From the NCBI RefSeq assembly GCF_013347965.1, contig NZ_CP048810.1, forward strand, positions 1,054,001-1,118,000: a stretch of 64,000 nucleotides of DNA, read 5' to 3'. The notes beneath the pieces were generated by a model. The model was not told where the DNA came from and ran no database searches. It saw nothing but the letters and a program-made list of their open reading frames with translations. Numbering within the stretch: position 1 is the first letter of the stretch; the number at the start of each line of letters is the position of its first letter. This DNA is from Pseudomonas bijieensis. Lineage in GTDB: Bacteria > Pseudomonadota > Gammaproteobacteria > Pseudomonadales > Pseudomonadaceae. This document shows, in pieces, positions 9,958-22,641 of the stretch. A program made the translations under genes and the position numbers.

Positions 9958-9974
9958 GTATTATGGTATACCAT
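9958..9974. promoter_or_regulatory. GntR-type operator, copy 1
   Basis: GTATTATGGTATACCAT at 9958-9974 contains the perfect palindrome ATGGTATACCAT (9963-9974), about 37 bp before the AA_synth start. Sixteen bases (GTATTATGGTATACCA) recur exactly at 15608-15623 and eleven (TATTATGGTAT) recur inverted near 16900. The TGGTATACCA core suits FCD-type GntR dimers, and a GntR/FCD gene lies at 13969. The regulator-site pairing is inferred. Confidence 0.75.
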
Positions 9975-10011
9975 CATACGCATAGACTTATTCACCGCCC
10001 AGGAGCAGCCC

Positions 10012-10602
10012 ATGAGTTTCGAAATCCGCAAGATCGTCAGCTATGTCGAAGAAACCTTTATCGAAGGCGGCAAGACCACTGACAAACCGGTGACCATGGT
10101 CGGGCTGGCGGTGGTGATGAAAAACCCTTGGCTGGGTCGCGGCTTCGTCGAAGACCTCAAGCCGGAAATCCGCGCCAACTGCTCCGACCTCGGCGCACTG
10201 ATGGTCGAGCGCCTGGTGGGCATCATCGGTGGTGCGCAGAAGATCGAAGCCTATGGCAAAGCCGCCGTGGTGGGTGCCGACGGCGAAATCGAGCACGCCT
10301 CCGCCGTGATCCACACCCTGCGCTTTGGCAACCACTACCGTGAAGCGGTCAAGGCCAAAAGCTACCTGAGCTTCACCAACAAGCGCGGCGGCCCGGGCAC
10401 GTCGATCCAGATCCCGATGATGCACAAGGACGACGAAGGCCTGCGCTCGCACTACATCACCCTGGAAATGCAGATTGAAGACGCCCCGCGTGCCGACGAA
10501 ATCGTCGTGGTACTGGGCTGCGCCGATGGCGGCCGCCTGCACCCGCGTATCGGCAACCGCTACATCGACCTGGAAGAACTGGCCGCCGAGAATGCGCAGT
10601 GA
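10012..10602 (+). CDS. AA_synth-family protein (DUF1185)
   Basis: A 196-residue soluble protein of the AA_synth (amino acid synthesis, DUF1185) family, recognised from IRKIVSYVEETFIEGGK at the start, GRGFVEDLKPEIRANC, and the conserved GGPGTSIQIPMMHKDDEGLRSHY and VLGCADGGRLHPRIGN blocks. Despite the family name, no enzymatic activity is firmly established to my knowledge. It is the first gene after operator copy 1 and runs into an alpha/beta hydrolase 45 bp later, so it opens the catabolic operon. Members often occur beside amidohydrolases and flavin oxygenases, which would fit a step on a carboxylate or amide intermediate. Family call is firm, function unknown. Confidence 0.88.
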   Translation: MSFEIRKIVSYVEETFIEGGKTTDKPVTMVGLAVVMKNPWLGRGFVEDLKPEIRANCSDLGALMVERLVGIIGGAQKIEAYGKAAVVGADGEIEHASAVIHTLRFGNHYREAVKAKSYLSFTNKRGGPGTSIQIPMMHKDDEGLRSHYITLEMQIEDAPRADEIVVVLGCADGGRLHPRIGNRYIDLEELAAENAQ

Positions 10603-10647
10603 TCCAGCCTGGGCAACCACAATAAAAAAGGCATGCAGGAGCGCTCC

Positions 10648-11481
10648 ATGATTCGGCTCACCGCTGAACTCACCCCGGCCGGCACCAGCTTCCTGGCAAC
10701 CGGCCAAGGCCAACCCGTGGTCTTGATCCACGGCGTGGGCCTGAACAAAGAAATGTGGGGCGGCCAGGTCGTTGGCCTGGCCACGCAATACCAGGTGATT
10801 GCCTACGACATGCTCGGCCATGGCGCCAGCCCGCGTCCGCAAAGCGGTACCGGGCTGCAGGGCTACGCCGACCAGTTGCTGGAACTGCTCGATCATTTGC
10901 AACTGCCTCAAGCGACGGTGATCGGTTTCTCCATGGGCGGCCTGGTGGCCCGGGCGTTTGCCTTGCATTACCCACAGCGCTTGCAAGGCCTGGTGGTGCT
11001 CAACAGCGTGTTCAACCGCAGCGCCGAACAGCGCGCCGGGGTCATCGCCCGTACCGCCCAAGCCGCCGAACATGGCCCGGACGCCAATGCCGAGGCGGCG
11101 TTGTCGCGCTGGTTCAGCCGTGAATACCAGGCGGCCAACCCGGCGCAGATCGCCGCGCTGCGCCAGACCCTGGCAGGCAACGATCCCCAGGGCTACCTGA
11201 CCACCTATGAACTGTTCGCCACCCAGGACATGTACCGCGCCGATGACCTGGGCGACATCCAGGTCCCGACGCTGATCGCCACCGGCGAACTGGACCCCGG
11301 CTCGACGCCGGAAATGGCCCGGCAGTTGGCCGAGCGAATTCCAGGCGCCACCGTTGCCGTGCTCGCCGAGCAGAGGCATATGATGCCGGTGGAATCGCCG
11401 CGCCTGGTCAACCAGCTGTTGCTGGAATTTCTCGACACAGCAAACGCCCGACAAAACCAAATAAAGGGGATCGTTGCATGA
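10648..11481 (+). CDS. Alpha/beta hydrolase
   Basis: A 277-residue alpha/beta-fold hydrolase. The oxyanion motif LIHGVGLNKEMWG comes early, the nucleophile elbow GFSMGG places Ser95, the acid is probably the Asp in TGELDPG, and the His is in EQRHMMPVE. The size and layout resemble RutD, 3-oxoadipate enol-lactonase and related C-N or ester hydrolases. I start at the ATG at 10648, which has AGGAG six bases upstream; an ATG at 10633 lacks one. The stop overlaps the aldehyde dehydrogenase start by 4 bp (ATGA), so the two are coupled. In the island it would hydrolyse a lactone, ester or amide formed by oxygenation; the substrate is inferred. Confidence 0.9.
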   Translation: MIRLTAELTPAGTSFLATGQGQPVVLIHGVGLNKEMWGGQVVGLATQYQVIAYDMLGHGASPRPQSGTGLQGYADQLLELLDHLQLPQATVIGFSMGGLVARAFALHYPQRLQGLVVLNSVFNRSAEQRAGVIARTAQAAEHGPDANAEAALSRWFSREYQAANPAQIAALRQTLAGNDPQGYLTTYELFATQDMYRADDLGDIQVPTLIATGELDPGSTPEMARQLAERIPGATVAVLAEQRHMMPVESPRLVNQLLLEFLDTANARQNQIKGIVA

Positions 11482-12959
11482 CACTCGCACGCTTTTCGAT
11501 GTGCATCGGCGGTGAATGGGTCGATGCCTTGTCCGGCAAAACCTTCGAAAGCCTGAATCCGGCCCTGGCCCAGCCCTGGGCCGAGCTGCCTGACGCCGAC
11601 GAAGCCGATGTCGAGCGCGCCGTGCAGGCGGCGCAAACCGCTTTCGATAGCCCCGCCTGGCGCGGCCTGACCGCCACCGCTCGCGGCAAACTGCTGCGTC
11701 GCCTGGGTGATCTGATCGCCGAAAACAAAGAACAGCTGGCCCAGCTGGAAAGCCGCGACAACGGCAAGTTGATCCGCGAAACCCGTGGCCAGGTCGGCTA
11801 TCTGCCGGAGTTTTTCCATTACACCGCCGGCCTGGCCGACAAGCTCGAAGGCGGCACCCTGCCGCTGGACAAGCCGGACCTGTTTGCCTACACCGTGCAC
11901 GAAGCCATGGGTGTGGTCGCGGCGATCATTCCCTGGAACAGCCCGCTGTACCTGACAGCGATCAAGCTCGCCCCGGCGCTGGCGGCGGGCAATACCATCG
12001 TGATCAAACCGTCCGAGCACGCCTCGGCGACCATTCTGGAGCTGGCGCGCCTGGCCCTGGAAGCGGGGATCCCGCCGGGCGTGGTCAATGTCGTCACCGG
12101 TTACGGCCCGAGCACCGGCGCCGCCCTCACCCGCCATCCGCTGGTGCGCAAGATCGCCTTCACTGGCGGCGCTGCCACGGCCCGGCATGTGGTGCGCAGC
12201 AGCGCGGAAAACTTCGCCAAGCTGTCGCTAGAACTGGGCGGCAAATCACCGAACATTATCTTCGCCGACGCCGATCTCGACAGCGCCATCAACGGGGCGA
12301 TTGCCGGGATTTATGCCGCATCCGGCCAGAGCTGCGTGTCCGGTTCGCGCTTGCTGGTGCAGGAGGAAATCTACGACGAATTCGTTGCGCGCCTGGTCGA
12401 ACGGGCCCAGCGCATCCGCATTGGCAACCCGCAGGAAGACGCCAGCGAAATGGGCCCCATGGCCACCGCCCAGCAACTGGCCGTGGTCGAAAGCCTGGTG
12501 GACGACGCCATCGCCGAAGGCGCCCGCCTGCGCCTGGGCGGCAAGCGTCCAAAGAACCTGGGGGACGGCTGGTTCTATGAACCGACCCTGTTCGAATGCG
12601 ACCGCAACTCGATGAAGATCATGCAGGAAGAGGTCTTCGGCCCGGTGGCCTCGGTCATCCGTTTCAAGGACGAAGCCGAAGCCCTGGCAATCGCCAACGA
12701 CTCGCAGTTCGGCCTCGCCGCCGGTATCTGGACCCGCGACCTGGGCCGCGCCCATCGCCTGGCCCGGGACGTGCGCTCCGGGATCATCTGGGTCAACACC
12801 TATCGCGCGGTCTCGGCCATGGCGCCTATCGGCGGTTTCAAGAACAGCGGCTATGGACGCGAAAGCGGCATCGATTCGGTGCTGGCTTATACCGAACTGA
12901 AGACGGTGTGGATCAATCTTTCCCAGGCGCCAATGCCTGATCCGTTCGTGATGCGCTAG
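11478..12959 (+). CDS. NAD(P)-dependent aldehyde dehydrogenase
   Basis: A 493-residue aldehyde dehydrogenase of the standard superfamily length. The catalytic Cys286 is in GQSCVSGSR and the general base Glu252 in LELGGKSP; IIPWNSPLY supplies the catalytic Asn, and FTGG and EEVFGPV are in place. It oxidises an aldehyde to the acid, most likely the final product of the island's route. It is translationally coupled to the hydrolase and followed 12 bp later by a flavin reductase. The cofactor and substrate cannot be read from the sequence with certainty; betaine, semialdehyde and aromatic aldehyde substrates are all possible. Confidence 0.93.
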   Translation: MTLARFSMCIGGEWVDALSGKTFESLNPALAQPWAELPDADEADVERAVQAAQTAFDSPAWRGLTATARGKLLRRLGDLIAENKEQLAQLESRDNGKLIRETRGQVGYLPEFFHYTAGLADKLEGGTLPLDKPDLFAYTVHEAMGVVAAIIPWNSPLYLTAIKLAPALAAGNTIVIKPSEHASATILELARLALEAGIPPGVVNVVTGYGPSTGAALTRHPLVRKIAFTGGAATARHVVRSSAENFAKLSLELGGKSPNIIFADADLDSAINGAIAGIYAASGQSCVSGSRLLVQEEIYDEFVARLVERAQRIRIGNPQEDASEMGPMATAQQLAVVESLVDDAIAEGARLRLGGKRPKNLGDGWFYEPTLFECDRNSMKIMQEEVFGPVASVIRFKDEAEALAIANDSQFGLAAGIWTRDLGRAHRLARDVRSGIIWVNTYRAVSAMAPIGGFKNSGYGRESGIDSVLAYTELKTVWINLSQAPMPDPFVMR

Positions 12960-12971
12960 GAGTCCTGAGAA

Positions 12972-13457
12972 ATGATCGAACCCGGCATCTACAAAGAAGT
13001 CATGAGCTCCTTCCCGTCCGGCGTCACGGTGGTCACCACCCTGGACCCGGACGGGAATATCGTCGGCATCACCGCCAGTGCGTTCAGCGCGCTGTCGATC
13101 GACCCGGCACTGGTGCTGTTCTGCCCCAACTACGCTTCCGACACCTACCCGATCCTGCGCGACAGCAAGCAGTTCGCGATTCATTTGCTCTCGGCTGACC
13201 AGACCGCCGAAGCCTACGCATTTGCAGGCAAAGGCAAGGACAAGGCCAAAGGTATCGACTGGCACCTCAGCGAACTGGGCAACCCGCTGCTTAGCAAGGC
13301 CACGGCGATTATCGAATGCGAACTGTGGCGCGAATACGATGGCGGCGACCACGCGATCATCGTTGGCGCGGTGAAGCACCTGATCCTGCCCGAGCAACCG
13401 GTCACACCGATGATCTACCACAAGGGCAAGCTGGGCCCGCTGCCGGCACTGGCCTGA
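12972..13457 (+). CDS. Flavin reductase (RutF/HpaC-like), copy 1
   Basis: A 161-residue flavin reductase domain protein. It begins MIEPGIYKEVMSSFPSGVTV, has TASAFSALSIDPALVLFC for flavin binding, and YDGGDHAIIVGAV with the conserved GDH motif. Such proteins reduce FMN or FAD with NAD(P)H and hand the reduced flavin to an oxygenase. A close paralogue of exactly the same length lies at 21037, beside the luciferase-like oxygenase. AGGAG ten bases upstream supports the start. It belongs to the same run as the aldehyde dehydrogenase and the following small protein. Which oxygenase it serves is not shown. Confidence 0.9.
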   Translation: MIEPGIYKEVMSSFPSGVTVVTTLDPDGNIVGITASAFSALSIDPALVLFCPNYASDTYPILRDSKQFAIHLLSADQTAEAYAFAGKGKDKAKGIDWHLSELGNPLLSKATAIIECELWREYDGGDHAIIVGAVKHLILPEQPVTPMIYHKGKLGPLPALA

Positions 13458-13503
13458 TGGCTATACACATCCCACAGGTTCATCCACTTTTTCAGGCAGC
13501 CCC

Positions 13504-13908
13504 ATGAGCAACGACAAATACGAACAAGGCCTCAAGATCCGCACTCAGGTGCTGGGCGAGGCTTATGTGCAACGCTCCATCGAGAACGCCGACGACTTCA
13601 CCCGCCCCTTGCAGGAAATGGTCACCGAATACTGCTGGGGCCATGTCTGGGGTCGAGAGGGTTTGTCCCTCAAGGAACGCAGCATGATTAACCTGGCGAT
13701 GATCTCGGCGCTCAATCGCCCCCATGAACTCAAGCTGCATGTGCGTGGCGCCTTGCGTAACGGCTTGAGTCGTGAGCAAATACGCGAAATTCTGCTTCAG
13801 GTCGGTATCTATTGCGGCGTCCCGGCTGCCGTGGACAGTTTCCGGCTTGCCCGTGAAGCCTTCGCCGAAGCCGACGCCGAGGCCTCCAGTCAACCCTCGG
13901 CTGTTTGA
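13504..13908 (+). CDS. Carboxymuconolactone decarboxylase-family protein
   Basis: A 134-residue protein of the carboxymuconolactone decarboxylase (CMD/AhpD-like) family. It has WGREGLSLKERSMINLAMI, followed by HELKLHVRGALRNGLSREQI and VGIYCGVPAAVDSF, which is the PcaC-like arrangement with a His and a single Cys rather than the CxxC of AhpD peroxidases. PcaC decarboxylates gamma-carboxymuconolactone, but no protocatechuate genes are nearby, so it may act on another lactone or beta-keto acid of this island. It lies 46 bp after the flavin reductase and ends 60 bp before the GntR gene. Confidence 0.88.
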   Translation: MSNDKYEQGLKIRTQVLGEAYVQRSIENADDFTRPLQEMVTEYCWGHVWGREGLSLKERSMINLAMISALNRPHELKLHVRGALRNGLSREQIREILLQVGIYCGVPAAVDSFRLAREAFAEADAEASSQPSAV

Positions 13909-13968
13909 TCTGAACGTGCACGGATGTTGCCCGTTTGGCATGGACAGCCATATTACAGAGCGGACCCC

Positions 13969-15286
<1,318 letters not shown>

Positions 15287-15292
15287 CAGGCT

Positions 15293-15586
15293 TCAAGGCG
15301 CCACGCCCTCGACGATGATCACCTCGGCCCGTGCCACACCCTCGCGATGTTCCTTCGCCGCCTGATACTGCTCTGAGTGATAACAGGCCAGCGCCTGCTC
15401 GTATGAGTCGAACTCGATGACCACGCTGCGTTGTGGCGTAGCCCTGCCCTCCACCGCCTCGCTGCGCCCGCCCCGGGCCAGCATCCGACCACCGTACTGA
15501 GCAAACGCCGCTGGCGCCCGCTGGGTGTATTGGCTGTATTGATCGGGGTCGGTGACATCCACATGAGCAATCCAGTACGCCTTCAT
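15293..15586 (-). CDS. DUF1330 family protein
   Basis: A 97-residue dimeric alpha/beta-barrel-type (DUF1330) protein. It begins MKAYWIAHVDVTDPDQYSQY and has VIEFDSYEQALACYHSEQY, the recognisable family core. GAGAGG is well placed before the ATG. Members are common beside catabolic genes, but no activity is settled. It is divergent from the RibBX gene and shares operator copy 2 with it, so it is probably co-regulated with the island. Confidence 0.88.
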   Translation of the reverse strand: MKAYWIAHVDVTDPDQYSQYTQRAPAAFAQYGGRMLARGGRSEAVEGRATPQRSVVIEFDSYEQALACYHSEQYQAAKEHREGVARAEVIIVEGVAP

Positions 15587-15607
15587 AGTGACCTCTCGGC
15601 TTGTTTC

Positions 15608-15623
15608 GTATTATGGTATACCA
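15608..15623. promoter_or_regulatory. GntR-type operator, copy 2
   Basis: GTATTATGGTATACCA is identical over 16 bases to operator copy 1. It lies between the divergent DUF1330 gene (start 15586) and the RibBX gene (start 15669), so one site could control both. The symmetry is slightly shorter here (TGGTATACCA, 15614-15623). Confidence 0.75.
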
Positions 15624-15668
15624 CAACGACATTCCAGCAAGCCCCCATCCAAACAAAGAGAGCCCGAC

Positions 15669-16778
15669 ATGGCCTTTAACAGCATTCAGGAAATCATCGA
15701 AGACTATCGCCAGGGCAAGATGGTGTTGCTGGTCGATGACGAGGATCGGGAAAACGAAGGCGACCTACTACTCGCCGCCGACTGCTGCAACGCCCAGGCC
15801 ATCAGCTTCATGGCCCGCGAAGCCCGTGGGCTGATCTGTCTGACCTTGACCGACGAACATTGCCAACGCCTGGGGCTGGAGCAGATGGTGCCAAGCAACG
15901 GTAGTGCATTCAGCACAGCTTTCACCGTTTCCATCGAGGCCGCCACGGGCGTGACCACCGGTATTTCCGCCGCCGACCGGGCACGCACCGTCGCCGCCGC
16001 CATGGCCGCCGATGCGGGGCCCAGCGATATCGTGCAGCCGGGGCATATCTTCCCATTGCGGGCCAAGGAAGGCGGCGTGCTGACCCGCGCCGGGCACACC
16101 GAAGCCGGGTGCGACCTGGCGCGCCTGGCGGGTTTCACACCGGCATCGGTGATCGTCGAAGTGATGAACGACGACGGCACCATGGCCCGCCGCCCGGACC
16201 TGGAGATTTTCGCCCGCAAGCACGGGATCAAGATCGGCACTATCGCCGACCTGATCCACTACCGCCTGAGCACCGAGCACACCGTGGTACGCATTGGTGA
16301 ACGGGAACTGCCCACCGTGCACGGTACCTTCCGCTTGTTCACCTTCGAAGACCGTATCGAAGGCGGCGTACACATGGCGATGGTGATGGGCAACATTCGC
16401 CGGGAAGAACCGACCCTGGTGCGGGTGCATGTGATCGACCCGCTGCGGGACCTGGTGGGCGCCGAATATAACGGCCCTTCCAATTGGACGCTGTGGGCGG
16501 CCCTGCAACGGGTCGCCGAAGAAGGCAGTGGCGTGGTGGTGGTGCTGGCCAATCACGAGTCGTCCCAGGCGTTGCTCGAGCGTGTACCGCAGTTGACCCA
16601 GCCGCCACGACAGTTCAGCCGCTCGCAATCGCGCATCTATTCTGAAGTGGGCACCGGAGCGCAGATTCTCCAGGACCTGGGCGTCGGCAAGTTGCGACAC
16701 CTGGGCCCGCCGCTCAAATACGCGGGGTTGACCGGGTATGACCTGGAGGTGGTGGAAAGTATTCCCTTCACCGGATAA
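15669..16778 (+). CDS. ribBX: RibBX-like DHBP synthase with degenerate GTP cyclohydrolase II domain
   Basis: A 369-residue RibBA-type protein. The N-terminal 200 residues are a 3,4-dihydroxy-2-butanone-4-phosphate synthase with [11 protein letters not shown], the acidic metal and substrate loop, and [14 protein letters not shown]. This enzyme makes the four-carbon unit of riboflavin from ribulose 5-phosphate. The C-terminal half aligns with GTP cyclohydrolase II but lacks the zinc-binding cysteine triad, so that activity is probably absent; this is the RibBX type described in proteobacteria. I use the ATG at 15669, after GAGAG. Its place next to flavin reductases, with an operator shared with them, suggests substrate-induced flavin supply. 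It is probably a paralogue of a housekeeping rib gene elsewhere. Confidence 0.88.
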
Positions 16779-16800
16779 ACCCGAGACAACACACAACGCC

Positions 16801-16826
16801 TTGTGGGAGCGGGCCTGCTCCCACAA
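16801..16826. repeat. Single REP hairpin
   Basis: TTGTGGGAGC at 16801-16810 pairs perfectly with GCTCCCACAA at 16817-16826 around a 6-base loop. It is a REP unit of the GTGGGAGC family and lies just after the RibBX gene, where it may act as a terminator. Confidence 0.75.
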
Positions 16827-16886
16827 AAGATCGCGAAAAACCCGGCCGGACAGATAGCCGGTACGGCAAAATGCTTGCAGAAAGTT

Positions 16887-16911
16887 TGGAATACCATAAT
16901 ATGATATTCCA
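16887..16911. promoter_or_regulatory. GntR-type operator, copy 3
   Basis: The 25-bp segment starting TGGAATACCATAATATG is a near-perfect palindrome (only one symmetric pair and the centre deviate). Read on the minus strand it contains TATTATGGTAT, as in operator copies 1 and 2. It lies 150 bp before the solute-binding-protein gene, so the ABC importer probably belongs to the same GntR regulon. Confidence 0.7.
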
Positions 16912-17061
16912 TAGACCGAACACTTCAGCCAAGTGCCCCTCGACAGGGAAAGCACAAACAAAAGCCCTTGGCTCGGTCGCCTTTAAGGCCAGATGGACCT
17001 ACTGCTCCCGATAGGCGGGCAACAAAAGCCCGCTCAAAAACACAACAATGAGGGCGTGAAA

Positions 17062-18087
17062 ATGGTGTTGAAGAAAAGTGCAGCCGCAGTACTGTTCGCA
17101 GGTTTGCTGGCCACAGTCAGTCATGTGGCAATGGCGGCGGAAAGCGTCAACTTCGTCAGTTGGGGCGGCAGCACCCAGGACGCGCAGAAACAGGCTTGGG
17201 CCGACCCGTTCAGCAAGGCCAGCGGCATCACCGTGGTCCAGGATGGCCCGACTGACTACGGCAAGCTCAAGGCCATGGTCGAAAGCGGTAACGTGCAATG
17301 GGACGTGGTCGACGTCGAGGCGGACTTCGCCTTGCGCGCCGCCGCTGAAGGCCTGCTCGAGCCCCTGGACTTCTCGGTCATCCAGCGCGATAAGATCGAC
17401 CCACGCTTCGTCTCCGATCACGGCGTCGGTTCGTTCTATTTTTCGTTCGTCCTCGGCTACAACGAAGGCAAACTCGGTTCCGGCAAGCCCCAGGACTGGA
17501 GCGCACTGTTCGACACCAAGACCTACCCCGGCAAACGCGCCCTGTACAAATGGCCAAGCCCTGGCGTGCTTGAGCTGGCCTTGCTGGCCGACGGCGTAAC
17601 GGCCGACAAGCTCTACCCGCTGGACCTGGACCGCGCCTTCAAAAAACTCGACACCATCAAGAAAGACATTGTCTGGTGGGGCGGCGGTGCCCAGTCCCAG
17701 CAGTTGCTCGCCTCCGGCGAAGCCAGCATCGGGCAGTTCTGGAACGGGCGCATCTATGCCTTGCAACAGGATGGCGCTCCCGTCGGCGTAAGCTGGAAGC
17801 AGAACCTGGTCATGGCCGACATCCTGGTCATTCCAAAGGGTTCGAAGAACAAGGCCGCGGCCATGAAGTTCCTGGCCCACGCCAGCAGCGCCAAGGGTCA
17901 GGCCGATTTTTCCAACCTGACCGCCTATGCCCCGGTCAACGTCGACAGCGTCGCACGCCTGGATTCGGTGCTCGCTCCCAACCTGCCGACCGCCTACGCC
18001 AAGGACCAGATCACACTTGATTTCGCGTACTGGGCCAAGAACGGTCAGGACATCGCGACACGGTGGAACGAATGGCTGGTCAAATGA
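17062..18087 (+). CDS. PotD-like ABC transporter solute-binding protein
   Basis: A 341-residue periplasmic binding protein of the spermidine/putrescine (PotD) family. The signal peptide ends near SHVAMAAES. The mature start VNFVSWGGSTQDAQ and the later YPGKRALYKWPSPGVLELALL, IVWWGGGAQSQQLLASGEA and GQFWNGRIYAL are family-typical. The ATG at 17062 follows a GAGGG site; AACAATGA at 17044-17051 resembles a CA motif. It starts a four-gene importer operon (binding protein, two permeases, ATPase). PotD-family proteins bind polyamines but also other amines, amino acids and opines, so the ligand here is open; it should be the substrate of the neighbouring oxygenase system. Confidence 0.92.
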   Translation: MVLKKSAAAVLFAGLLATVSHVAMAAESVNFVSWGGSTQDAQKQAWADPFSKASGITVVQDGPTDYGKLKAMVESGNVQWDVVDVEADFALRAAAEGLLEPLDFSVIQRDKIDPRFVSDHGVGSFYFSFVLGYNEGKLGSGKPQDWSALFDTKTYPGKRALYKWPSPGVLELALLADGVTADKLYPLDLDRAFKKLDTIKKDIVWWGGGAQSQQLLASGEASIGQFWNGRIYALQQDGAPVGVSWKQNLVMADILVIPKGSKNKAAAMKFLAHASSAKGQADFSNLTAYAPVNVDSVARLDSVLAPNLPTAYAKDQITLDFAYWAKNGQDIATRWNEWLVK

Positions 18088-19007
18088 AAATAGCGGCACC
18101 GGCAACCCAGCACACCGCTGGCGCTGCCGGTGTGACAATCGCCAAGACCGTTGCCCCGCAAACCCCGTCGCCGGCCCAGCGCTGGCGCGGGAGCGGCAAT
18201 CTGCTTCCCGCCCTGCTGTTCCTCGGACTGTTCTTCCTGGCGCCGCTGATTGGCCTGTTGTTGCGCGGCGTGCTGGAACCGGTGCCCGGCCTGGGTAATT
18301 ACGAGCAACTGTTCGCCAACTCGGCCTATGCGCGGGTGTTGATCAACACCTTTTCGGTGGCCGGGCTGGTGACGCTGTTCAGCCTGCTGCTGGGTTTCCC
18401 CCTGGCCTGGGCCATCACCCTGGTGCCCCGTGGCTGGGGCCGTTGGATGCTGAACATCGTGCTGCTGTCGATGTGGACCAGCCTGCTGGCCCGCACCTAC
18501 TCCTGGCTGGTGTTGCTGCAAGCCTCCGGGGTGATCAACAAGGCGTTGATGGCCATGGGCATCATCGACCAACCGTTGGAGATGGTGCACAACCTCACCG
18601 GCGTGGTGATCGGCATGAGCTACATCATGATCCCGTTCATCGTCCTGCCGTTGCAGGCAACCATGCAGGCCATCGACCCGATGATCCTGCAGGCCGGCTC
18701 CATCTGTGGCGCCAGCCCCTGGACCAACTTCTTCCGGGTGTTCCTGCCGCTGTGCCGACCGGGGCTGTTCTCCGGCGGGCTGATGGTGTTCGTGATGTCC
18801 CTCGGTTACTACGTGACCCCGGCACTGCTGGGCGGCGCGCAGAACATGATGCTGCCGGAATTCATCATCCAGCAGGTGCAGTCGTTCCTCAATTGGGGGC
18901 TGGCCAGTGCCGGCGCCGCCTTGTTGGTGGCGATCACCCTGGTGCTGTTCTACTTCTACCTGAAGCTCCAGCCGGAATCCCCGGTAGGTGCCAGCAACGC
19001 GAGGTAA
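18084..19007 (+). CDS. ABC transporter permease (PotB-like)
   Basis: A 307-residue permease with six predicted membrane segments, starting after about 45 hydrophilic residues (LLPALLFLGLFFLAPLIGLLL is the first). The EAA coupling loop is seen around QAGSICGASPWTNFFRVFLPLCRPG. The ATG at 18084 overlaps the binding-protein stop by 4 bp (ATGA); an earlier in-frame ATG exists but would overlap more. It forms the channel with the next gene. Confidence 0.92.
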   Translation: MKIAAPATQHTAGAAGVTIAKTVAPQTPSPAQRWRGSGNLLPALLFLGLFFLAPLIGLLLRGVLEPVPGLGNYEQLFANSAYARVLINTFSVAGLVTLFSLLLGFPLAWAITLVPRGWGRWMLNIVLLSMWTSLLARTYSWLVLLQASGVINKALMAMGIIDQPLEMVHNLTGVVIGMSYIMIPFIVLPLQATMQAIDPMILQAGSICGASPWTNFFRVFLPLCRPGLFSGGLMVFVMSLGYYVTPALLGGAQNMMLPEFIIQQVQSFLNWGLASAGAALLVAITLVLFYFYLKLQPESPVGASNAR

Positions 19008-19013
19008 GCCGTC

Positions 19014-19823
19014 ATGCTCCTGACTCCCAATGCCATGAGCCGGCGCATGCGGTTCGGGCTGTACTTCACCACTGGCCTGATCGCGCTGTTCCTGCTGTTG
19101 CCGATCGTGTTCATCGTGCTGCTGTCGTTCGGTTCGTCCCAGTGGCTGGTGTTCCCGCCACCAGGCTGGACCTTGAAATGGTACGGCCAGTTCTTCTCCA
19201 ACCCCGACTGGATGAGCGCGGCCCTGACCAGCCTCAAGGTCGCGGTACTGACCACCGTCTGCGCCGTGGCGCTGGGTTTGCCGACCGCGTTTGCCCTGGT
19301 CCGCGGGCGCTTTCCCGGTCGGGAAATGCTCTATGGCCTGTTCACCCTGCCGATGATCGTGCCGCTGGTGATCATCGCGGTGGCGGTGTACGCGTTGTTC
19401 CTGAAACTGGGTTACACCGGGACGATGTTCGCGTTCGTGGTCAGTCACGTAATCGTCGCACTGCCCTTCACCATTATCTCGATCATCAACTCGCTCAAGC
19501 TGTTCGACCAATCCATCGAGGATGCGGCGGTGATCTGCGGCGCCTCACGCCTGCAAGCGGTGTTCAAGGTGACCTTTCCGGCGATTCGCCCCGGCATGGT
19601 CGCCGGCGCCTTGTTCGCCTTCCTGGTGTCGTGGGACGAGGTGGTGCTGAGCGTGATGATGGCCAGCCCGACTCTGCAAACCCTGCCGGTAAAAATGTGG
19701 ACCACCCTGCGCCAGGACCTGACGCCCGTGATCGCCGTCGCTTCGACGCTGCTGATCGGCCTCTCGGTGTTGGTGATGGTGATCGCCGCCGCCCTGCGCC
19801 GGCGCAATGAAATCAGCGCCTGA
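19014..19823 (+). CDS. ABC transporter permease (PotC-like)
   Basis: A 269-residue permease with six predicted membrane helices, the partner of the previous gene. The EAA-type loop reads EDAAVICGASRLQAVFKVTFP, followed by IRPGMVAGALFAFLVSWDEVV, which is strongly PotC-like. It begins 6 bp after the preceding stop and is followed 17 bp later by the ATPase gene. Confidence 0.93.
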   Translation: MLLTPNAMSRRMRFGLYFTTGLIALFLLLPIVFIVLLSFGSSQWLVFPPPGWTLKWYGQFFSNPDWMSAALTSLKVAVLTTVCAVALGLPTAFALVRGRFPGREMLYGLFTLPMIVPLVIIAVAVYALFLKLGYTGTMFAFVVSHVIVALPFTIISIINSLKLFDQSIEDAAVICGASRLQAVFKVTFPAIRPGMVAGALFAFLVSWDEVVLSVMMASPTLQTLPVKMWTTLRQDLTPVIAVASTLLIGLSVLVMVIAAALRRRNEISA

Positions 19824-19840
19824 GCGCCTAGGAGAATACG

Positions 19841-20992
19841 ATGAGTGCCGTCAAAGACCCCGCACAACAGCACAACAAGACCCTGGTCAGCCTGCGCAAC
19901 CTGAACAAGCACTACGGCGACTTTGCCGCCGTGGACGACATCTCCCTGGACATCCAGGACGGTGAATTCCTGACCTTCCTCGGCTCCAGCGGCTCGGGCA
20001 AGAGCACCACGCTGTCGATGCTGGCCGGGTTTGAAACGCCCAGCAGCGGCGAAATCCTGGTGGGAGGCAAATCCCTGGTCAACGTGCCACCGCACAAACG
20101 CGACATCGGCATGGTGTTCCAGCGTTACTCACTGTTCCCGCACCTGTCGGTGCGCGACAACATCGCCTTTCCCCTGGCGATTCGCAAACTGGCCAGCGCG
20201 GAACGCGAGCGCCGGGTCGATGCCATGCTCAAGCTGGTGCAACTGGGCGAGTTCGCCCATCGGCGTCCTTCGCAACTCTCTGGCGGCCAACAACAGCGTG
20301 TGGCGATCGCCCGGGCACTGGTCTATGAACCACGCATTCTGCTGATGGATGAACCACTCGGCGCCCTGGATAAAAAACTCCGCGAAGACCTGCAGGACGA
20401 ACTGCGCCAATTGCATCGGCGCCTGGGCATCACCATCGTCTACGTCACCCATGACCAGGAAGAAGCCATGCGCCTGTCCCAGCGCATCGCCATTTTCAGC
20501 CACGGCAAGATCGTCGGCCTGGGCAGTGGCTATGACCTCTACCAGAACCCACCGAACGCGTTCGTGGCCTCGTTCCTGGGCAATTCCAACTTCCTCAAGC
20601 TCAAGGCCCAGGGCAACGCGGTAGCCTCCTTCGAAGGCCAGCCACTGTCTATCCGCCTGACCGCTGGCCTGCAAATCGAGCAGGACGTGCTGCTGATGGT
20701 GCGCCCGGAAAAAGCCCTCGCCTTGAGCGTCGAGCAAGCCGGCCAGGAACCCTTGGCGGCTGGCTGGAATGAAGTCTCGGCCAAGGTCGTCGAAGTGCTG
20801 TTCCTTGGTGAAAGCCAGACCTGCAGCGTGGTGACCTCGGGCGGAACCTCGATGACCGTCAAGGCGCTGTCCGCCGCCGGCATGCCGCTCAAGGCCGGCG
20901 ACCCGGTGCGTGTGCGCTGGGCCACCGCCGATGCCTGCGTCTACACCCAATGGGCCGAGAGCGACCTGAACAAAGCCGCAGGTGCCCATTGA
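19841..20992 (+). CDS. ABC transporter ATP-binding protein (PotA-like)
   Basis: A 383-residue ATPase of the polyamine/opine importer type. Walker A is GSSGSGKST, the Q loop is in MVFQRYSLFP, the signature is LSGGQQQRVAIARAL, Walker B is ILLMDEPLGALD, and the switch His is in YVTHDQEEAM. A C-terminal TOBE_2 domain (about 285-370) follows, as usual for PotA. AGGAG precedes the start. The stop TGA overlaps a possible ATG for the next gene (TGATG), so the importer and the second flavin reductase are probably one transcript. Confidence 0.94.
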   Translation: MSAVKDPAQQHNKTLVSLRNLNKHYGDFAAVDDISLDIQDGEFLTFLGSSGSGKSTTLSMLAGFETPSSGEILVGGKSLVNVPPHKRDIGMVFQRYSLFPHLSVRDNIAFPLAIRKLASAERERRVDAMLKLVQLGEFAHRRPSQLSGGQQQRVAIARALVYEPRILLMDEPLGALDKKLREDLQDELRQLHRRLGITIVYVTHDQEEAMRLSQRIAIFSHGKIVGLGSGYDLYQNPPNAFVASFLGNSNFLKLKAQGNAVASFEGQPLSIRLTAGLQIEQDVLLMVRPEKALALSVEQAGQEPLAAGWNEVSAKVVEVLFLGESQTCSVVTSGGTSMTVKALSAAGMPLKAGDPVRVRWATADACVYTQWAESDLNKAAGAH

Positions 20993-21036
20993 TGAACATT
21001 GCGCGCCCACAACCGATAAAGCCCGAGGATCGTCCG

Positions 21037-21522
21037 ATGATCGATGCCAGTGTCTACAAACAAGTCATGGGCTCGTTCCCGTCCGGGGTGACGGTGATCA
21101 CCACGCTCGATGACGATGGGCAGATCGTCGGCCTCACCGCCAGCGCGTTCAGCTCGTTGTCGATGGACCCAGCCCTGGTGCTGTTCTGCCCCAACTACAG
21201 TTCCGACTCCTACCCGGTGCTGATCAAGAACCGCCGCTTCGCCATCCACGTGCTCTCCGGCGGTCAGCAGAACGAAGCCTATGCCTTCGCGCGCAAAGGC
21301 AAGGACAAGGCCCAGGGCATCGAATGGACCCTGAGCGAGCTGGGCAACCCGTTGCTGAGTAACGCCACCGCCATCATCGAATGCGAACTGTGGCGAGAAT
21401 ACGAAGGCGGCGACCACGCCATCATGGTCGGTGCCGTGAAGAATCTGATCGTGCCGCAACACACACCGGGGCCGCTGGTTTATTGCCACGGCAAGATGGG
21501 CGCCCTGCCCGTCCTCGCCTGA
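21037..21522 (+). CDS. Flavin reductase (RutF/HpaC-like), copy 2
   Basis: A 161-residue flavin reductase closely similar along its whole length to the protein at 12972 (same FPSGVTV, DPALVLFCPNY, GNPLL and GGDHAI blocks). I choose the ATG at 21037 because it aligns with the paralogue's start and has GAGGA upstream; an ATG at 20992 overlapping the ATPase stop would add 15 residues. It lies 29 bp before the luciferase-like oxygenase, so it is the natural FMNH2 supplier for it. The gene probably arose by duplication within the island. Confidence 0.9.
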   Translation: MIDASVYKQVMGSFPSGVTVITTLDDDGQIVGLTASAFSSLSMDPALVLFCPNYSSDSYPVLIKNRRFAIHVLSGGQQNEAYAFARKGKDKAQGIEWTLSELGNPLLSNATAIIECELWREYEGGDHAIMVGAVKNLIVPQHTPGPLVYCHGKMGALPVLA

Positions 21523-21551
21523 ACCGATCGCCAACAACAAGAGAAAGCGCC

Positions 21552-22595
21552 ATGAAATTTTCCCTGTTCGTACACATGGAGCGCTGGGACGAAAGCGTCA
21601 GCCATCGCCAGTTGTTCGAAGACCTGACCGAGCTGACCCTGCTGGCAGAGGCTGGCGGTTTCAGCACCGTGTGGATCGGCGAACACCACGCCATGGAATA
21701 CACCATCTCGCCAAGCCCGATGCCGCTGCTGGCGTACCTGGCCGGCAAAACCACCACTATCCACCTGGGCGCGGGTACCATCATCGCGCCGTTCTGGCAC
21801 CCGCTGCGGGTGGCCGGCGAATGCGCGCTGCTGGACGTGATCAGCAATGGCCGTATGGAAGTGGGCCTGGCCCGGGGCGCCTATCAAGTGGAGTTCGACC
21901 GCATGGCCGGCGGCATGCCGGCATCCTCCGGCGGCCAGGCGCTGCGGGAAATGGTCCCGGTGGTGCGCGCCCTGTGGCAAGGCGACTACGCCCACGATGG
22001 CGAGATCTGGAAATTCCCCACCTCCACCAGCGTGCCCAAGCCGATCCGCAAACCCTACCCACCGATGTGGATCGCCGCCCGCGACCCGGACTCCCACAAC
22101 TTCGCCGTCGCCAACGGCTGCAACGTGATGGTCACGCCGTTGATGAAGGGCGATGAGGAAGTCCTGGACCTGAAGAACAAGTTCCAGGCCGCCCTGGACA
22201 ACAACCCCGACGTGCCACGCCCGCAATTGATGGTGCTGCGTCACACCCACGTGCATGCCGTGGATGATCCCGAAGGCTGGAAGGTTGGTGCCCAGGCGAT
22301 CTCCAGGTTCTATCGCACCTTCGATGCCTGGTTCGGCAACAAGCAAGTACCGGTCAACGGTTTCCTCGCGCCAAGCCCGGAAGAAAAGTTCGCCGAGCGT
22401 CCGGAGTTCCAGCTGGAGAACATCCGCAAGAACACCATGATCGGCACGCCGCAGGAAATCATCGAACGCATCAAGTACTACCAGGAACTGGGAGTGGATG
22501 AGTTCAGCTTCTGGTGCGACAACAGTCTGCCCCATGCCGAGAAGAAGAAATCCCTGGAGTTGTTCATCCAGCAGGTGGTGCCGGTGTTTCGCTGA
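21552..22595 (+). CDS. Luciferase-like (LLM) flavin-dependent monooxygenase
   Basis: A 347-residue TIM-barrel oxygenase of the bacterial luciferase family. It begins MKFSLFVHMERWDESVSHRQ, has GFSTVWIGEHHAMEY with the paired His residues, the family block LGAGTIIAPFWHPLRVAGE, and GRMEVGLARGAYQVEF. These enzymes use reduced FMN from a separate reductase and O2 to oxygenate carbonyls, amines or N-heterocycles. AACAACAAG at 21533-21541 next to GAGAAAG is a good CA motif. It is the last gene of the importer-reductase unit and is followed by a long perfect hairpin. With the hydrolase and aldehyde dehydrogenase it defines a plausible oxygenate-hydrolyse-oxidise route; the substrate is unknown. Confidence 0.92.
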   Translation: MKFSLFVHMERWDESVSHRQLFEDLTELTLLAEAGGFSTVWIGEHHAMEYTISPSPMPLLAYLAGKTTTIHLGAGTIIAPFWHPLRVAGECALLDVISNGRMEVGLARGAYQVEFDRMAGGMPASSGGQALREMVPVVRALWQGDYAHDGEIWKFPTSTSVPKPIRKPYPPMWIAARDPDSHNFAVANGCNVMVTPLMKGDEEVLDLKNKFQAALDNNPDVPRPQLMVLRHTHVHAVDDPEGWKVGAQAISRFYRTFDAWFGNKQVPVNGFLAPSPEEKFAERPEFQLENIRKNTMIGTPQEIIERIKYYQELGVDEFSFWCDNSLPHAEKKKSLELFIQQVVPVFR

Positions 22596-22599
22596 TCGG

Positions 22600-22641
22600 T
22601 TATCTGGCCATCGCGAGCGGGCTCGCGATGGCCAGATAACT
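22600..22641. terminator. Perfect 20-bp-stem hairpin after the LLM gene
   Basis: A 20-base arm (22600-22619, starting GTTATCTGGCC) is followed by two bases and its exact reverse complement (22622-22641). It begins five bases after the LLM stop codon. There is no T-run, so it may be an mRNA 3'-end stabiliser or REP-derived element as much as a terminator. The inner part, ATCGCGAGC...GCTCGCGAT, resembles REP sequence. Confidence 0.7.

Follow-up and report, generated by a model that had tools for sequence, protein, structure and literature searches.

Trigonelline (N-methylnicotinate), a plant alkaloid, is a widespread plant compound, and the tgn pathway for its catabolism was reportedly described in Acinetobacter baylyi ADP1 by Perchat in 2018, the source of the reaction order and of the Tgn gene letters that we use here. 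Trigonelline genes are also said, judging by the title of a 1991 report by Goldmann, to lie on pSym. Opening of the trigonelline ring is ascribed to the TgnA/TgnB oxygenase system in the accessible part of PMC8269262, which cites Perchat 2018, and the available portion of PMC4207669 states that Sinorhizobium meliloti without pSymA fails to grow on trigonelline. Here we describe a GntR-linked gene cluster of Pseudomonas bijieensis that encodes a luciferase-like flavin-dependent oxygenase (LLM), an aldehyde dehydrogenase (ALDH), an alpha/beta hydrolase and an ATP-binding cassette (ABC) importer. It lies in a window of 64,000 nucleotides, positions 1054001-1118000 of the single-contig 6.73-Mb genome. 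With a probability of roughly 0.85, we take this cluster to be the Pseudomonas form of the trigonelline catabolic cluster; it appears to be a divergent Pseudomonas/actinobacterial form, its LLM falling in a sister clade to that of Acinetobacter.

In the proposed pathway, the ABC importer would take up trigonelline, and the LLM, supplied with reduced flavin mononucleotide (FMN) by two small flavin reductases, would open the pyridinium ring using O2. The ALDH would oxidize the ring-opened product and the alpha/beta hydrolase would split the resulting compound into succinate semialdehyde, methylamine, formate and CO2, after which a succinate-semialdehyde dehydrogenase (SSADH) encoded elsewhere in the strain, perhaps together with the CMD-family protein of the cluster, would yield succinate. 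RibBX and a NUDIX hydrolase would keep FMN available, while the GntR protein would repress all three transcription units of the cluster at the operator TATGGTATACCA. What was observed is the gene content, the homology and co-conservation of the genes, the sharing of the operator and the conservation of the SBP pocket; the substrate, each enzymatic step, repression by GntR and the role in flavin supply are inferred.

A first-pass annotation of this DNA had proposed a GntR-controlled unit in which an imported cationic or N-containing compound is oxygenated, hydrolysed and oxidized by an undescribed pathway. The catabolic unit stands, with the imported compound now a probable cationic N-heteroaromatic that the LLM would oxygenate ahead of oxidation and hydrolysis. 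The novelty of the pathway does not, because the same core genes and the same operator make up the trigonelline-type clusters of Acinetobacter and rhizobia; the pathway is therefore already known, and what is new is the divergent Pseudomonas form. Although none of the papers listed in searches on trigonelline, one of which listed 20 of 16,207, describes the Pseudomonas set with RibBX, NUDIX, DUF1330 and two short reductases, the match of all core genes and of the operator makes an undescribed pathway very improbable.

Gene content and closest relatives of the cluster

Gene calls and domain or profile matches recovered every gene that had been named in the first-pass annotation. The calls arrange them in three plus-strand transcription units, AA_synth to NUDIX (unit 1, 10012-15286), RibBX alone (unit 2, 15669-16778) and the importer genes followed by those for flavin reductase 2 and the LLM (unit 3, 17062-22595). 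The DUF1330 gene is on the minus strand between units 1 and 2, so the cluster is not one operon. The features are as follows.

9962-9973: operator 1, an exact copy of TATGGTATACCA, before the AA_synth operon
10012-10602, plus strand: AA_synth protein (PF06684, 236 bits), present in every cluster type examined
10633-11481, plus strand: alpha/beta hydrolase, a proposed TgnD-like amide hydrolase (PcaD-like, below the model cut-off)
11478-12959, plus strand: ALDH, proposed to be TgnC-like (580 bits)
12972-13457, plus strand: flavin reductase 1, 161 amino acids, 71% identical to flavin reductase 2
13504-13908, plus strand: CMD-family protein, 75-77% identical to the CMD protein of the Acinetobacter cluster
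13969-14721 (alternative start 13924), plus strand: GntR/FCD regulator, 39% identical to the GntR of the Acinetobacter cluster
14723-15286, plus strand: NUDIX hydrolase with a Zn-ribbon, for which a flavin-nucleotide role is proposed
15293-15586, minus strand: DUF1330 protein, 97 amino acids (family name as in the first-pass annotation)
15612-15623: operator 2, an exact copy of TATGGTATACCA, before RibBX
15669-16778, plus strand: RibBX (DHBP synthase plus GTP cyclohydrolase II-like; NF009132, 813 bits, cut-off 693), proposed FMN supply
16887-16898: operator 3, TATGGTATACCA with one mismatch, before the importer genes
17062-18087, plus strand: ABC substrate-binding protein (SBP), a close relative of Pf622 (93.5% over 275 amino acids)
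18084-19007, plus strand: ABC permease 1, 51% identical to a Mesorhizobium cluster permease
19014-19823, plus strand: ABC permease 2, 57% and 50% identical to Mesorhizobium and S. meliloti cluster permeases
19841-20992, plus strand: ABC ATPase, 47-49% identical to S. meliloti and Mesorhizobium cluster ATPases
21037-21522, plus strand: flavin reductase 2, 161 amino acids, adjoining the LLM gene
21552-22595, plus strand: LLM flavin-dependent oxygenase (PF00296, 187 bits), proposed to open the ring; TgnB sister clade

The cluster of Acinetobacter baumannii (locus L145) runs GntR, AA_synth, hydrolase, reductase, LLM, ALDH and an NCS1-type permease, followed by a transposase, an SSADH-like ALDH gene and, adjoining the latter, a CMD gene. 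Three Acinetobacter LLMs that NCBI names the oxygenase component of flavin-dependent trigonelline monooxygenase are 93-94% identical to the L145 LLM, and JGI gives a similar trigonelline name to five among the 120 relatives of the window LLM listed (74-80% identity). The GntR, AA_synth, hydrolase, reductase, LLM, ALDH and CMD genes are common to L145 and the window, as is the operator before AA_synth, which has one mismatch in Acinetobacter. The window proteins are 77% (CMD), 57.5% (AA_synth), 54.6% (ALDH), 50.6% (LLM), 39% (GntR) and 34% (hydrolase) identical to their Acinetobacter counterparts; a TgnC-like ALDH and a TgnD-like hydrolase are thus encoded with the LLM. The Acinetobacter cluster differs in having one reductase of 310 amino acids, an NCS1-type permease and an SSADH-like gene inside the cluster, whereas the window has two reductases of 161 amino acids (37% identical over about 130 residues to the Acinetobacter reductase), an ABC importer and no SSADH gene in the cluster. 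Neither RibBX nor NUDIX was found by homology within the 29 kb of L145 compared. The L145 record (NZ_CP104448.1, 4.09 Mb) is listed as a plasmid in PLSDB, although its size suggests a chromosome; NZ_CP077849.1 (3.66 Mb) is another record filed in this way.

Candidates for the SSADH occur elsewhere in the same genome, at 65, 62 and 56% identity to a Zobellella protein, and these homologs could supply the succinate-semialdehyde step; the Zobellella SSADH-like ALDH (L065) is in turn 69% identical to the Acinetobacter SSADH-like gene product. In 8 of 80 named LLM loci (LLM-centred stretches with at most 10 kb on each side), an ALDH 39-43% identical to that of the window is encoded just before CMD, or before GntR in L124.

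On pSymA of S. meliloti, the same core genes lie between nod and nif genes. This cluster and that on pRL10 of Rhizobium johnstonii 3841 resemble the window in AA_synth, hydrolase, LLM, ALDH, ABC importer and SBP pocket, and they carry the operator with one mismatch (S. meliloti) or exactly (R. johnstonii). They differ by a NIPSNAP gene and one long reductase, with SSADH in the R. johnstonii operon, and RibBX was not found in the stretches compared. The S. meliloti LLM is 72% identical to that of Acinetobacter and 50% to that of the window, and the S. meliloti SBP is 61% identical to the window SBP. Further identities are 57-59% between the window AA_synth and the Acinetobacter, Sinorhizobium and Mesorhizobium cluster copies, 55.8% between the window and S. 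meliloti ALDHs, 40% between the window and Arthrobacter hydrolases, and 41% between the window GntR and the product of an unannotated open reading frame upstream of the S. meliloti cluster. The AlphaFold model of AA_synth matches structures 3byq and 2qtp. The latter (SPO0826) is a protein of Silicibacter (Ruegeria) pomeroyi DSS-3, which, according to the part of PMC8269262 available, grows better on trigonelline than on homarine.

Relative to known tgn clusters, the window cluster adds RibBX, NUDIX and DUF1330. A NUDIX gene is also found in the Rhizobium phaseoli cluster. In the Arthrobacter cluster, NUDIX stands together with riboflavin kinase, so that Pseudomonas and Arthrobacter are two lineages in which the cluster comes with flavin-related genes; we read RibBX and NUDIX as a probable source of FMN. 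The Burkholderia and Gemmobacter clusters have annotated DUF1330 genes as well. The Rut pyrimidine pathway, with its similar logic of LLM, flavin reductase and alpha/beta hydrolase, was considered and rejected on profile scores (RutD, 93 of 238.5 bits; RutF, 62 and 66 of 254.75 bits).

A common predicted operator joins the three units and the two LLM clades

The operator was counted both as the 12-mer TATGGTATACCA and as the 10-mer TGGTATACCA. The window holds three copies of TGGTATACCA with at most one mismatch against 0.47 expected, a total of three being reached in 1 of 100 shuffles, and one copy stands ahead of each plus-strand unit. Exact copies of TATGGTATACCA number two in the whole genome (operators 1 and 2); allowing one mismatch, it matches five distinct places, three of them in this cluster, compared with two places for the backward control pattern. 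The three plus-strand units are thus predicted to form one compact regulon with a named operator. The remaining two genomic matches lie one within a coding gene and one, with a single mismatch, just upstream of another GntR-family gene (genome position 1221047; L181, near 1548); related FCD regulators may have this operator core in common.

The same motif accompanies the LLM elsewhere. Exact TGGTATACCA copies occur in 68 of the 80 LLM loci and one-mismatch copies in 10 of the other 12, and none was found in L099 and L112, whose contigs are both only ~3.3 kb. The 1.55 Mb of these loci hold 105 exact copies, compared with 7 for the best of 29 palindromes of the same composition. For 116 exact copies in a larger locus set, the nearest gene downstream (at least 60% identity, within 450 bases) was LLM in 47 cases, RibBX in 26, AA_synth in 18, the small flavin reductase gene in 14, DUF1330 (transcribed away from RibBX) in 6 and SBP in 1, with none in 4, so that the operator stands ahead of AA_synth and of RibBX in relatives too.

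This arrangement extends to the Tgn-type clusters of Acinetobacter, rhizobia, Rhodobacterales and Burkholderia, where the operator precedes AA_synth with at most one mismatch in nine of nine cases (five exact). Tgn-type loci hold 13 operator sites at this stringency; 40 control palindromes averaged 0.125 sites, and none had more than 3. Within L145, a two-mismatch copy at 20455, just before the SSADH-like ALDH and CMD genes, suggests that these two belong to the same regulon. A GntR regulator with a common operator is therefore a predicted feature of the window and tgn clusters alike, and it connects the two main LLM clades. No copy with up to one mismatch was found in three loci of a third cluster type described below.

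The importer and the bacterial GABA-binding proteins

Over 275 residues, the window SBP shares 93.5% identity with the Pf622 portion of 6dgv, the Pseudomonas fluorescens protein in the gamma-aminobutyric acid (GABA) sensor iGABASnFR, and the closest copies to Pf622 (96-97%) lie within window-type clusters (L160, L162 and L107). Pf622 was chosen by genome screening as a homolog of Atu4243, and iGABASnFR has a dissociation constant (Kd) of 9 uM, according to the available part of PMC6747460. The portion of PMC12999171 at hand gives the GABA contacts as W9, T13, F100, Y102 (F before engineering), W202, R205, D228 and Y264, and attributes a ten-fold gain in affinity to the engineered F101L substitution. 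All eight contact positions, with F or Y at 102, are kept in 48 of 48 SBPs from cluster loci of both LLM clades. Of these, 34 are main copies in Pseudomonas, 7 are second copies next to a main one, and 7 come from rhizobia, Burkholderia and Gemmobacter; at residue 101 they have Y (32) or F (16), never L. The two nearest SBP paralogs in the same genome (38% identity) differ at 5 and 4 of the eight positions. By sequence and contact set, the window SBP belongs to the Pf622/Atu4243 family of GABA-binding SBPs. The window SBP keeps all eight contact positions of iGABASnFR/Pf622 (6dgv, 9d57), with the natural F at 102; Pf622 and 4eq7/4euo, which we take to be Atu4243, differ from the window SBP in being known as GABA binders. 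For the S. meliloti cluster SBP, the match to 4eq7 scores 614 bits.

The importer had been called PotDBCA-type, a name that holds only loosely (NF007048, 46 bits against a cut-off of 582). The polyamine importer PotABCD was likewise rejected as an identification (NF007048, 46 of 582 bits; NF007962, 38 of 636 bits).

A first alternative is that the importer serves GABA uptake while the enzymes act on something else, with only the regulator in common. The Pf622-based sensor binds GABA and was solved with it, and Atu4243 is termed a GABA-binding protein, in the available text of PMC12999171. The distribution of the SBP argues against this separation of roles. A plasmid search gave 231 records for the SBP (E up to 1e-100) and 269 for the Tgn-type LLM (E up to 1e-130), with equal counts in six comparable genera, namely Rhizobium (133), Sinorhizobium (72), Paraburkholderia (5), Shinella (4), Caballeronia (3) and Mesorhizobium (3). 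SBP and LLM genes lie about 3 kb apart in 17 of 17 accessions listed in both searches, and five of five annotated stretches around SBP matches hold the LLM cluster (about 5 kb apart in Burkholderia). The LLM is not always accompanied by this importer, because four genera of the LLM list are missing from those named in the SBP search, namely Leisingera (17), Acinetobacter (6), Thioclava (5) and Pantoea (4). In the window itself, the SBP gene has the same direction and belongs to the same unit as the LLM gene, and the gene calls and profile matches place no GABA transaminase in the cluster. The ten-fold gain from F101L, taken with the sensor Kd of 9 uM, further implies that the natural protein probably binds GABA more weakly. 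We therefore consider separate GABA uptake unlikely.

The rhizobial counterpart has a history of its own. The Gts system of Rhizobium leguminosarum is said to have been named for GABA uptake by White in 2009, in an abstract that reportedly suggested a more complex GABA precursor as the substrate, and the naming is a further point for the GABA-uptake explanation. The pRL10 copy of R. johnstonii 3841 is presumably this Gts operon. At L174:2549-14271, pRL10 carries a complete trigonelline-type cluster with operators. That cluster may answer the old question of the natural Gts substrate.

We propose trigonelline as the candidate cognate ligand of these SBPs. An aromatic cage with one arginine would suit a pyridinium carboxylate, and trigonelline can be regarded as a rigid analogue of GABA. 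We lean towards the view that the bacterial 'GABA-binding proteins' Pf622 and Atu4243 (and presumably GtsA) in fact serve a pyridinium-degrading regulon as its trigonelline receptors, whose aromatic cage and arginine evolved for N-methylnicotinate and for which GABA is a flexible mimic. If this is true, one would expect wild-type Pf622 to have a higher affinity for trigonelline than for GABA and iGABASnFR to respond to trigonelline or be blocked by it, and the R. leguminosarum gts operon would be a trigonelline operon. A GABA sensor would then have been built on a receptor for a dietary alkaloid and would need a trigonelline control, and iGABASnFR could be converted into a trigonelline sensor. 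Our literature search, which lacked most subscription papers, found no paper joining trigonelline with Atu4243, Pf622 or iGABASnFR (all five papers that contained two of these four terms left trigonelline unmentioned), and none linking all of tgn enzymology, rhizobial trigonelline genes and the GABA-binding proteins of neuroscience, which this analysis brings together.

Co-conservation and trigonelline use in Pseudomonas

A strong LLM match (E at most 1.9e-179) was found in ~165 of 298 sampled genomes of the genus, counted by hand and including that of P. bijieensis; for the LLM gene of these genomes, a specific testable assignment replaces an 'undescribed pathway'. We compared 40 LLM genomes, the first in list order (G419 omitted for 9% contamination), with 36 LLM-negative genomes, also in list order (G443 omitted for 87% completeness), and four odd cases. 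A hydrolase ortholog (at least 76% identity) is present in 40 of 40 genomes with the LLM versus 1 of 36 without it (G444, a 650-contig draft), 11 more of the latter having distant paralogs only (31-35%). The exact 12-mer TATGGTATACCA occurs in 40 of 40 versus 2 of 36 (G444 and G426), and its reversed control pattern once among the 80 genomes. These counts bear out the co-conservation of the gene set, on which the first-pass annotation had staked its proposal. Of the odd cases, G414 and G448 carry the operator along with a hydrolase (95 and 71%, respectively); G412 and G487 contain the third cluster type, and the exact operator was not found in them. All 22 named genomes chosen from the 80 loci carry the hydrolase, and a search at E up to 1e-40 gave no second TgnB-like LLM in any of them.

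Within 10 kb of the LLM gene, the small reductase is encoded in 76 of the 80 loci, RibBX in 33, GntR in 27 and ALDH in 16. At L163:8674-11200, genome G426 retains the operator, partial AA_synth and NUDIX matches, CMD and GntR; hydrolase, ALDH, reductase and LLM were not found in this stretch, nor a close LLM in a search of the genome, and the locus is an apparent remnant of a decayed cluster.

Growth phenotypes from other Pseudomonas point in the same direction. Trigonelline was used by all 33 isolates of pv. actinidiae, both of pv. actinidifoliorum and all 18 of the remaining P. syringae isolates (53 of 53 in all) in Table 2 of PMC10890144, a source available in part. P. syringae pathovars use trigonelline and P. 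coronafaciens does not, and trigonelline use already tells plant-associated Pseudomonas apart, according to the portion of PMC6283537 consulted; for P. viridiflava, the corresponding portion of PMC9412563 gives 97.9% of 48 isolates. P. syringae PA-6-8C has a window-type LLM and hydrolase, on two contigs, and a search of its genome gave no second TgnB-like LLM. P. viridiflava has the LLM and AA_synth.

Divergence of the LLM and the identity of the substrate

In a midpoint-rooted tree of 47 LLM rows, the window clade (13 rows) has support of 100/99 and the Tgn clade (13 rows plus three intermediate) 98/93. These two main clades and a third-type group, 37 rows together, are set apart from 10 outgroup rows (100/100). 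The window LLM thus falls on the Tgn side relative to the outgroup, but in a sister subclade at 50.6% identity.

The third type is a paralogous ring-opening cluster in Pseudomonas, seen at L157:4777-15611 (G416), L158 (G412) and L159 (G487). Its AA_synth (52-53%), hydrolase (38-40%) and CMD protein (47-53%) resemble those of the window, and its LLM is 41-45% identical to those of the other types. It also has a reductase of ~300 amino acids, an ALDH, another ABC ATPase and an SSADH-like ALDH.

Several observations weigh against trigonelline as the substrate of the window cluster. Genome G416 holds the third type beside the window type, which indicates that the module can diverge and that the third type may serve another N-heteroaromatic. 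The identities of only 50.6% (LLM) and 34% (hydrolase) to the Acinetobacter proteins make a shifted substrate possible, and two 161-residue reductases take the place of a flavin reductase of ~310 residues beside the LLM. In the Arthrobacter cluster, which has an LLM 76% identical to that of the window, the transporter gene encodes a cytosine permease and the operator is absent. JGI assigns other listed LLM relatives only a generic SsuD-type name. The two halves of the cluster are mostly not within 10 kb of each other, AA_synth being found in 13, the hydrolase in 14 and the SBP in 31 of the 80 loci. Phenotypes and genome sequences come from different strains, which makes the link between genotype and phenotype a correlation. 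Lastly, the authors of PMC10890144, in the part available, remark that their pv. actinidiae results depart from other reports in several traits, including trigonelline.

Some of these points would also fit a second alternative, in which the cluster performs the same chemistry on a similar N-heteroaromatic zwitterion or cation, such as another N-alkyl pyridinium carboxylate, nicotinate itself or a pyridine. The strongly supported split of the LLM clades at about 50% identity, the low hydrolase identity, the different flavin reductase architecture and the diversification of the module seen in the third type speak for such a change of substrate. Set against them are the common operator, the SBP pocket shared by 48 of 48 proteins, and SSADH-like and CMD partners as in the Acinetobacter cluster; moreover, P. 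syringae is trigonelline-positive, and the single genome searched yielded no further TgnB-like LLM. On balance, a different but similar substrate seems quite unlikely, and we retain trigonelline as the probable substrate of the P. bijieensis cluster.

A further arrangement was seen on a plasmid of Pararhizobium gei (L177:16817-18939), where a second LLM gene, an acyl-CoA dehydrogenase gene and a gene for another ABC SBP lie beside a trigonelline-type cluster.

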